Below are positions 40,645-43,261 of a DNA stretch of 64,000 nucleotides, in pieces (the first letter of the stretch is position 1; each line of letters opens with the position of its first letter). Below the pieces are notes generated by a model. It searched no databases. It was not told the DNA's origin and saw only the letters and a program-made list of their open reading frames with translations. This stretch comes from Gammaproteobacteria bacterium (GTDB taxonomy: Bacteria > Pseudomonadota > Gammaproteobacteria > Natronospirales > REEB76), in NCBI GenBank assembly GCA_036383255.1, contig DASVOS010000004.1, forward strand, positions 186,001 to 250,000. Reading direction: 5' to 3'. The position numbers and the translations under genes are program-made.

Positions 40645-41337
40645 ACGCCCCTCGTCCCCTACATCAGCCTCGCCGAAGCCCGTGCCCGCCAGGAGGCGAT
40701 GCGCGGCCAGGTGGAGCGCCAGGGCAAGCTCCCCTTCGACGCCGTGCGCTACGTGGCGGGGGTGGACTGCGCCTTCCCGGGCGAGCACCAGGGCCGCGTG
40801 ACCCGCGCCGCCGTGGCGGTACTCACGTTCCCCGGCCTGGAGCTGCACGAGTTCACGGTGGTGGAGCGGCCCACGGACTTCCCCTACGTGCCGGGCTTCC
40901 TCTCCTTCCGCGAGGTGCCGGCCATCCTGCTGGCGCTGGAGCAGCTCAAGACCCGGCCCCAGCTCCTGATCGTGGACGGCCAGGGTTATGCACACCCGCG
41001 TGGCTTCGGCATCGCCTGCCACCTGGGGGTGCAGACGGGCCTGCCCGCCATCGGCGCCGGCAAGTCGCGCCTGGTGGGTGAGTTCCACATGCCGGCCACG
41101 GCGGTCGGCTCCCGTTCTCCGCTGACGTACCGCGGCGAGACCGTGGGCACGGTGCTGCGCACCCGCGACGGGGTGAACCCGCTGTTCGTGTCGGTGGGCC
41201 ACAAGCTGGACCTGGACAGCGCGGTCGCCTGGGTACTGGCCTGCACCCGCGGCTACCGCCTGCCCGAGACCACCCGCTGGGCCGACGGCCTGGCCGGGGA
41301 CCCGGGGTTCCGCGCCAGGCCCCGCCGCGCGCGGTAA
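40645..41337 (+). CDS. nfi: Endonuclease V with no standard start codon
   Basis: Endonuclease V cuts DNA one base 3' to deoxyinosine. The catalytic marks are GVDCAF, YVPGFLSFRE, LLIVDGQGYAHPR and IGAGKSRL. The first in-frame ATG is at 40699, but family-like sequence (ISLAEARARQEAMRGQVERQ) begins about 12 codons earlier. The frame is open back to 40591 with no ATG, GTG, TTG or CTG. ACG at 40645 has GAGG eight bases upstream and would give 230 residues, the normal family length. I list that start; 40699 would give 212 residues and lose the first helix. The stop is one base before another ATG at 41339. Confidence 0.8.
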   Translation, partial: TPLVPYISLAEARARQEAMRGQVERQGKLPFDAVRYVAGVDCAFPGEHQGRVTRAAVAVLTFPGLELHEFTVVERPTDFPYVPGFLSFREVPAILLALEQLKTRPQLLIVDGQGYAHPRGFGIACHLGVQTGLPAIGAGKSRLVGEFHMPATAVGSRSPLTYRGETVGTVLRTRDGVNPLFVSVGHKLDLDSAVAWVLACTRGYRLPETTRWADGLAGDPGFRARPRRAR

Positions 41338-41374
41338 GATGCCCGCAGGGGTCCGATGGCATAAGAAAAATCCG

Positions 41375-43261
41375 ATGGCGGCAGGCGACATCAAGTTCAT
41401 CCTCGATTTCGACAGCACCCTGGTGCGCGTCGAGACGCTGGAGATCATGGCCGACCTGGTCCCGGGCGGCGCCAAGCTGCGCGCACGCATCCGCGAGATC
41501 ACCGACGCCGCCATGGGCGGCCACATGCACTTCCAGGACGCGTTGCGCGAGCGTTTGAAGCTCCTGCACATGCACCGCGACCAGCTCACCCAGCTCGGCG
41601 CACAGCTCAGGGAGGAGATCAGTCCCTCCTTCAAGCGCAACCGCGCCTTCCTCGCCGCCAACGCCGCGGACATCCATGTCGTCACGAGCGGCTTCCGCGA
41701 GGTGGTGCTGCCGGTGGTGAAGGGCCTGGGCCTGCGGCCCGAGCAGGTCTACGCGAACACCCTGCACTTCGACGCGGAGGGCTACATCGACGGCGTGGAC
41801 TGGCAGAACCCGCTGGCCACCGACGGCGGCAAGGTGAAGGTGGTGAAAGGCCTCAAGCTCGAGGGCGAAGTGGTGGTGGTCGGCGACGGCTGGAGCGACT
41901 ACGAGATCCTCGCCGCCGGAGCGGCGCAGCGCTTCTACGCCTTCACCGAGAACGTGCAGCGCGAGGAGGTGACCGGCGCCAGCGGTGCGCGGCAGGCGCC
42001 GAGCTTCGACGAGGTGCTGTACGACTGCGGCCTCAGGGCCGCCGTGTCCTACCCCAAGAACCGGCTCAAGGTGCTGCTGCTGGAGGGCATCCATCCCGAG
42101 GCGGTGGCGGCCTTCGAGCGCGAGGGCTATGCGGTGGAGTCATTGAAGGGCAGCCCGCCCTCCGGCGAGCTGGCCCAGCGCCTGGCGGACGTGGCGATCC
42201 TCGGCATCCGCTCCAAGACCCAGCTGGACGCGCCGGCGCTCGCGGCCGCGAAGCGCCTCCTGGCGGTCGGCGCGTTCTGCATCGGCACCAACCAGATCGA
42301 CCTGCCGGAATGCGAGCGGCGCGGCGTGGCGGTGTTCAACGCGCCCTTCAGCAACACCCGCTCGGTGGTGGAGCTGGCCCTCGCCGAGCTGATCCTGCTC
42401 ATGCGCGGCATCCCGGCGAAGATGCGCATGATGGATGCCGGCACCTGGGACAAGTCCGCCCAGGGCGCCCACGAGGTGCGCGGCAAGCGCCTCGGCATCG
42501 TCGGCTACGGCAACATCGGCATGCAGCTCTCGGTGCTCGCCGAGTCCATGGGCATGCAGGTCTGCTTCTACGACGTGGCCGAGAAGCTCGCCCTCGGCAC
42601 CGCCCAGCGCTGCAACAGCCTGGAAGAGCTCCTCGAGACCAGCGACGCGGTGACCGTGCACGTGGACGGGCGCCGCGAGAACGCCGGCCTCATCGGCCCG
42701 CGCGAGTTCGCGCGCATGAAGGAAGGTTCGGTGTTCCTGAACCTCTCCCGCGGGCACGTGGTGGACCTCGTCTCGCTGCGCAGCCACCTCCTGTCCGGGC
42801 ACCTGGCCGGCGCGGCGGTGGACGTGTTCCCGGACGAGCCCCACGGGAACGGCGAGCGCTTCGAGCACCCGTTGCGGGACGTCCCGGAGGCGCTGCTCAC
42901 CCCGCACATCGGCGGCAGCACCCTGGAAGCACAGCACGATATCGGCCGGTTCGTGAGCGGACGCATCATCGACTACATCAACACCGGCAGCACCGAGAAC
43001 TGCGTGAACTTCCCCGCCATCCGCCTGCCGCCCCAGGAGAAGGCGCACCGCCTCATCCATCTGCACGAGAACGTGCCCGGCATCCTGGCGCGCATCAACC
43101 AGGCTTTGGCCGCCGCCGGCGCCAACATCACCGGCCAATACCTCAAGACCAACGAGCGCATCGGCTACGTGATCACCGACATCGACAGCCACTACTCCGA
43201 GTCGCTGCTGGACGAGATCCGGGGCATCCCGCACACCTTGAGATTCAGGGTGCTTTACTGA
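41375..43261 (+). CDS. Fused phosphoserine phosphatase-phosphoglycerate dehydrogenase
   Basis: A 628-residue fusion. Residues 1-225 are a HAD phosphatase of the SerB type: nucleophile DFDST (11-15), SGF, a lysine in GGKVKVVKG and VGDGWSDYE. Residues about 228-628 are an E. coli-type SerA: FCIGTNQIDLPEC, NAPFSNTRSVVELALAEL, NAD motif GYGNIG, catalytic LSRGHVVD, FPDEP and TPHIGGS, then a C-terminal ACT domain (HENVPGILARINQALAAAG). It would carry the first and last steps of serine synthesis. ATG 41375 starts the HAD fold; 41339 is an alternative. Confidence 0.9.
   Translation: MAAGDIKFILDFDSTLVRVETLEIMADLVPGGAKLRARIREITDAAMGGHMHFQDALRERLKLLHMHRDQLTQLGAQLREEISPSFKRNRAFLAANAADIHVVTSGFREVVLPVVKGLGLRPEQVYANTLHFDAEGYIDGVDWQNPLATDGGKVKVVKGLKLEGEVVVVGDGWSDYEILAAGAAQRFYAFTENVQREEVTGASGARQAPSFDEVLYDCGLRAAVSYPKNRLKVLLLEGIHPEAVAAFEREGYAVESLKGSPPSGELAQRLADVAILGIRSKTQLDAPALAAAKRLLAVGAFCIGTNQIDLPECERRGVAVFNAPFSNTRSVVELALAELILLMRGIPAKMRMMDAGTWDKSAQGAHEVRGKRLGIVGYGNIGMQLSVLAESMGMQVCFYDVAEKLALGTAQRCNSLEELLETSDAVTVHVDGRRENAGLIGPREFARMKEGSVFLNLSRGHVVDLVSLRSHLLSGHLAGAAVDVFPDEPHGNGERFEHPLRDVPEALLTPHIGGSTLEAQHDIGRFVSGRIIDYINTGSTENCVNFPAIRLPPQEKAHRLIHLHENVPGILARINQALAAAGANITGQYLKTNERIGYVITDIDSHYSESLLDEIRGIPHTLRFRVLY

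Follow-up and report, generated by a model that had tools for sequence, protein, structure and literature searches.

E. coli-type SerA (NF008759; PDB 1yba and 1psd) carries the same catalytic residues, and the same serine-binding residues in its ACT domain, as the SerA half of the fusion protein analyzed here, but it is without a phosphatase domain, and SerB is there the product of a separate gene. Human PSPH and the SerB-type enzymes of archaea and bacteria (PDB 6hyy, 1l8l, and 1f5s) share their fold and active-site residues with the N-terminal domain of the fusion; those enzymes stand alone, whereas here the phosphatase is fused upstream of SerA and scores below the TIGR00338 cut-off. Mycobacterial SerB2 (PDB 3p96) is, like the fusion, a phosphoserine phosphatase carrying ACT domains, and these are reported to regulate the phosphatase, which serine inhibits (PMC10564941). 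Its order is ACT-ACT-phosphatase, however, with ACT domains that do not come from SerA, while the fusion has a SerA-derived ACT domain at its C-terminal side. Two enzymes of the serine pathway are joined in the PGDH-PSAT fusion of oomycetes (PMC2705460, PMC5715807), but that protein unites steps 1 and 2 in eukaryotes, and the fusion reported here unites steps 1 and 3 in bacteria. The glycerol-3-phosphate dehydrogenase of Dunaliella (PDB 6iuy) has, as the fusion does, an NAD-dependent dehydrogenase preceded at its N-terminal side by a PSP-like HAD domain. Both the dehydrogenase and the product differ from those of the fusion. We take the HAD part of the Dunaliella enzyme to be a glycerol-phosphate phosphatase, and its two steps to be consecutive. 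Each half of the fusion is an ordinary known family, and fusion sequences are already present in public genomes; among open-licence papers, we found no description of a SerB-SerA fusion or of its reduced form.

The fusion gene is one open frame of 628 codons, encoding a 628-residue protein, on the plus strand of the window (the whole stretch of 64,000 nucleotides that was analyzed); an in-frame ATG at 41339 is an alternative start that would add 12 codons and yield a protein of 640 aa. Its features are as follows.

41375..43261, plus strand: serBA fusion gene, 628 aa (open frame and family profiles)
41375..42037, plus strand: SerB-type HAD phosphatase domain, residues 1-221 (Pfam HAD, solved relatives, AlphaFold model, aligned residues)
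42038..43036, plus strand: SerA dehydrogenase body with substrate and NAD-binding domains, residues 222 to ~554 (NF008759, aligned residues)
43052..43240, plus strand: C-terminal ACT domain, residues 560-622 (PF22629, 39.1 bits against a cut-off of 27; aligned residues)

Pfam places HAD at residues 9-179, 2-Hacid_dh at 233-545, 2-Hacid_dh_C at 338-513, and an ACT domain of the AHAS small-subunit type at 560-622, each above its cut-off, and the NCBIfam phosphoglycerate dehydrogenase model NF008759 covers residues 222-628 with 603.2 bits (cut-off 404). A sequence-only reading of this DNA had proposed that SerB and a complete SerA with its ACT domain lie in one chain, which Pfam, NCBIfam, and the aligned residues bear out; its further proposal, that the first and third steps of serine synthesis are combined in one protein, gains support insofar as the protein is, by its sequence, a SerB-SerA fusion, and both phosphatase and dehydrogenase activities are predicted for it. 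Because NF008759 is the only NCBIfam equivalog that the protein passes, and it names phosphoglycerate dehydrogenase, annotation can miss the phosphatase half and list the genome, in error, as having no SerB. In published surveys, SerB often goes uncalled, 450 human-gut genomes being an example (PMC9026213).

The phosphatase half matches the SerB model TIGR00338 over residues 8-198 with 66.0 bits, against a cut-off of 144.15, and the whole frame scores 69.7 bits in the genome search, likewise below a cut-off that was reached in only 7 of 14 control genomes. Because of this score we name the N-terminal half SerB-type and do not call it a TIGR00338 member. It does exceed the cut-off of the HAD-IB subfamily TIGR01488 (62 bits against 45). 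Among solved structures, those nearest to residues 1-221 are phosphoserine phosphatases, with human PSPH first (5e-22), and an AlphaFold model of this half (pLDDT 94) has the PSP fold, its best Foldseek match again being human PSPH (TM 0.84). The HAD phosphatase motifs claimed from the sequence are present: D11, D13, E20, R60, K153, D171, and D175 align with their counterparts in E. coli SerB and, together with S14 and T15, are shared by the window and all 39 of the fused relatives that were aligned. We assume that E20 and R60 are the substrate-binding Glu and Arg of PSP, and assign the roles of the HAD motifs on the same footing. The asparagine of the GDGxN motif of E. coli SerB is replaced by Ser174 in the fusion protein and by Thr in human PSPH; among the fused relatives, position 174 holds Ser, Thr, Gly, or Asn.

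The C-terminal 407 residues match E. coli SerA over their whole length at ~48% identity, and the alignment places R279, R459, E488, H511, and a GYGNIG motif beginning at residue 377 in the SerA half. The Arg-Glu-His set is presumably catalytic, GxGxxG and the substrate-binding Arg60 presumably having the roles they have in E. coli-type SerA. In the ACT domain, H564, N566, and N584 correspond to H344, N346, and N364 of E. coli SerA, which we take to be its serine-binding residues. The window and 39/39 fused relatives share all seven E. coli SerA residues (R60, R240, E269, H292, H344, N346, and N364); where E. coli SerA has R62, the window and every one of the 39 have Lys, and at position 306 (N87 of E. 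coli SerA) 31 of the relatives have N, 5 have T, and 3 have K. An AlphaFold model of the full chain has a mean pLDDT of 67.6, its SerA half being too poor for placing domains.

We think it very probable that the protein is a bifunctional serine-synthesis enzyme in which both ends of the pathway lie under one ACT serine sensor, with no direct transfer of intermediates. In such an enzyme, the SerA half would convert 3-phosphoglycerate to 3-phosphohydroxypyruvate, SerC, encoded elsewhere, would convert this to phosphoserine, and the SerB half of the same polypeptide would remove the phosphate to give serine. Serine bound at the C-terminal ACT domain would most likely inhibit the SerA half, as it does in the E. 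coli enzyme, and would probably modulate the attached phosphatase too; the fusion would fix the ratio of the two ends and let a single sensor govern both the entry step, which is the committed one, and the exit step, which is irreversible. Both serine inhibition and ACT control of the phosphatase are predictions. Direct channeling, which had been raised from the sequence as one possible benefit of the fusion, is unlikely because SerC acts between the fused steps: the SerA product must go through an enzyme encoded by a separate, unlinked gene, and on this ground we rejected channeling as the leading mechanism.

Relatives in which the parts are arranged differently bear on the regulatory side of this reading. 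The loci concerned are as follows.

L052:845-2724: split serB-serA pair with a 4-base stop/start overlap
L051:1498-3422: split serB-serA pair with a 4-base stop/start overlap
L149, minus strand: split serB-serA pair with a 4-base stop/start overlap
L144:2023-2688: lone phosphatase gene, no SerA matched within the retrieved stretch
L145: lone phosphatase gene (HAD frame, 241 aa), no SerA matched within the retrieved stretch
L146-L148: lone phosphatase genes, no SerA matched within the retrieved stretch
L078:2039-3331: reduced fusion
L079:2942-4279: reduced fusion
L080:1993-3282: reduced fusion
L081:2704-3993: reduced fusion
L125, L126, L128, L130-L133: reduced fusions

The reduced form occurs in 11 of 395 Bacteroidota genomes and is a protein of ~430 residues in which the phosphatase is followed by what remains of the SerA substrate domain and by the ACT domain; the whole NAD-binding domain is gone, as seen by alignment in 4 of the 11 and by family scans in two of the 11. 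All 11 proteins retain D11, D13, E20, R60, K153, D171, and D175 of the phosphatase as well as the His and two Asn of the ACT domain, and in all 11 the substrate arginine of SerA has become Ala, Gly, or Asp. In each of the four reduced genomes examined out of the 11 (G661, G514, G606, and G491), there is a serC with a separate SerA-type gene behind it; the product of the latter is 384 aa in G661, and the frames in the other three are 320-339 codons, too short for an ACT-bearing SerA. Because the reduced proteins have dropped the dehydrogenase and kept the phosphatase along with the serine-binding residues, the ACT domain appears relevant to the phosphatase, which suggests that it serves this enzyme too. 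The shared feedback by serine that had been supposed possible is thus plausible, with indirect support from the residues that these 11 sequences keep. The ACT domain could also have been kept in the reduced form for oligomerization or stability and not for serine sensing. We would put at about an even chance the fuller account, in which entry and exit came under one SerA-derived ACT domain and the dehydrogenase was later gutted in a Bacteroidota lineage, so that a new type of serine-regulated phosphoserine phosphatase remained. The fused, split, and reduced forms together amount to a natural experiment on whether two pathway steps that are not consecutive can be controlled by a single ACT domain, and the same three forms bear on how a dehydrogenase shrinks to a regulatory module for its fusion partner.

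Alternatively, one could envision the fusion as a convenience of expression or stoichiometry only, with independent halves and an ACT domain that regulates SerA alone. The split form, found in three genomes (G146, G055, and G757), fits this account: serB and serA are neighboring genes in that order and overlap by 4 bases in 3 of 3 pairs examined, so that co-expression suffices there. So do the five HAD genes of the phosphatase family for which the retrieved stretch gives no SerA match; in all, the phosphatase is a gene of its own in six further Bacteroidota genomes, one of which (G757) has the split pair. Two of the lone genes (L144 and L145) branch among the Bacteroidota fusion proteins in the phosphatase tree and may be products of fission or loss. 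That 11 reduced proteins should keep both phosphatase and ACT residues after loss of the dehydrogenase is unexpected on this account, however, unless the ACT domain aids folding or assembly, and we regard mere convenience as a possible but somewhat doubtful explanation.

For the rest of the genome, we searched an assembly of 2.59 Mb in 18 contigs that is listed as 100% complete. The fusion is the only SerA-type match; the only other 2-hydroxyacid dehydrogenase is a 318-aa protein that is without an ACT domain and reaches no NCBIfam cut-off. For SerB, the search with TIGR00338 and PF12710, which covers phosphatases of the HAD fold, gave no second SerB above, or even near, the family cut-off. 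PF12710 marks six places, namely the fusion, a histidinol-phosphatase, three HAD genes, and part of a 738-aa frame, and the combined search touched parts of two long frames, of 738 and 898 aa. The histidinol-phosphatase is a separate HAD-IB gene, the strongest apart from the fusion (293.9 bits against an NCBIfam cut-off of 280), and the three further HAD genes, judged by sequence and neighbors, are presumably YrfG-like or phosphoglycolate-phosphatase-like. The search for separate serA and serB genes that had been recommended as a check thus returned none above cut-off; a separate functional serB beside an inactive N-terminal domain had been named as grounds for giving up the bifunctional reading, and what we found is a genome in which the fusion is the only SerA/SerB candidate and the other HAD-IB gene is a histidinol-phosphatase. 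As for SerC, the observation that it is absent from the fusion locus holds, but it is not missing overall: a serC above two family cut-offs lies on contig C9, unlinked to the fusion, in the order gyrA-serC-hisC, where gyrA and hisC are names we assign from sequence. With one polypeptide carrying SerA and SerB-type halves, and serC present, the pathway looks complete as judged from the genes, the fusion apparently serving steps 1 and 3.

These data also bear on whether the HAD half acts on some other substrate, such as histidinol phosphate or a target of metabolite repair, while an unrecognized enzyme dephosphorylates phosphoserine. The score below the SerB cut-off is compatible with this, and HAD-IB phosphatases do switch substrates, PSP-like proteins having been proposed to be histidinol-phosphatases (PMC5764234). 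However, the genome has a separate histidinol-phosphatase and no other SerB above cut-off, the solved structures closest to this half are those of phosphoserine phosphatases, E20 and R60 are retained, and in the split and fused forms examined the phosphatase gene adjoins serA or is fused to it. We therefore consider another substrate improbable. It is more improbable still that the fusion recruits SerC into a complex and so channels intermediates through all three steps; such a complex has in its favor only the general consideration that enzymes of a pathway, once fused, may assemble into complexes, but SerC is here an ordinary separate gene at an unlinked site.

The search of databases for the same domain order, which had likewise been called for, was productive, as the order recurs in the window's family, in other proteobacterial lineages, and in Bacteroidota. 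Both halves are matched in every one of the 11 other genomes of this family, in 9 of them in one frame to the C-terminus; in the remaining two, the match stops at residue 553 (G005) or lies in two pieces (G007). One genome of this family (G009) has two full-length fusion matches, G009:C3:6940-8805 and G009:C60:2897-4780, with 75% and 70% identity, which could be a duplication or reflect a mixed assembly. In seven genomes of the same order, the fusion was not found, and the dehydrogenases there are other ones with ~29-35% identity. A sample of the class (n = 369) held the full fusion in five genomes: the window's own, one of its family, G276, G336, and G238. In a sample of the phylum (n = 398), six genomes passed 1e-140, these being the window and five genomes of one genus (G1140, G1060, G1072, G889, and G801; loci L163-L167), which belong to another proteobacterial family outside the class and whose fusions are full-length and 52-54% identical. 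Bacteroidota had the full fusion in 19 of 296 genomes and, in a larger draw, in 25 of 395, all 25 with both halves in one frame. None of 72,556 plasmid records holds 80% of the fusion protein in one place. An assembly or frame artefact joining two genes can be dismissed as practically out of the question, because the fused frame recurs uninterrupted in 9/11 same-family genomes, in 25/395 Bacteroidota genomes, and in the five genomes of the other proteobacterial family.

Upstream of the fusion, an endonuclease V gene (nfi, window 40699-41337) ends 37 bases before the fusion start. Among the neighboring genes compared at 17 relative loci, several of these loci being short, none was a conserved neighbor in most relatives: nfi and murB were matched at 0/17, one upstream neighbor gene at 3/17, and another at 1 of those 3.

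In the SerA tree, 40 fused halves, two split SerAs, and one unfused SerA stand apart from classical SerA, though this separation is not fully supported (84/93), and the window's lineage forms a well-supported clade with L031 of G276 (100/96). In the phosphatase tree, which has several long rows and a very long branch to its E. coli SerB outgroup, the 11 reduced proteins form one clade (100/99) that lies beside two proteins with the full fusion (95/90), within the fused Bacteroidota sequences. Both trees were built without the five fusions L163-L167, and the starred branches neither require that the fused SerA halves of either group arose more than once nor show that they arose a single time. 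An unfused, SerA-only frame of 428 aa (L089, G642) sits on a long branch among the fused Bacteroidota SerA halves.
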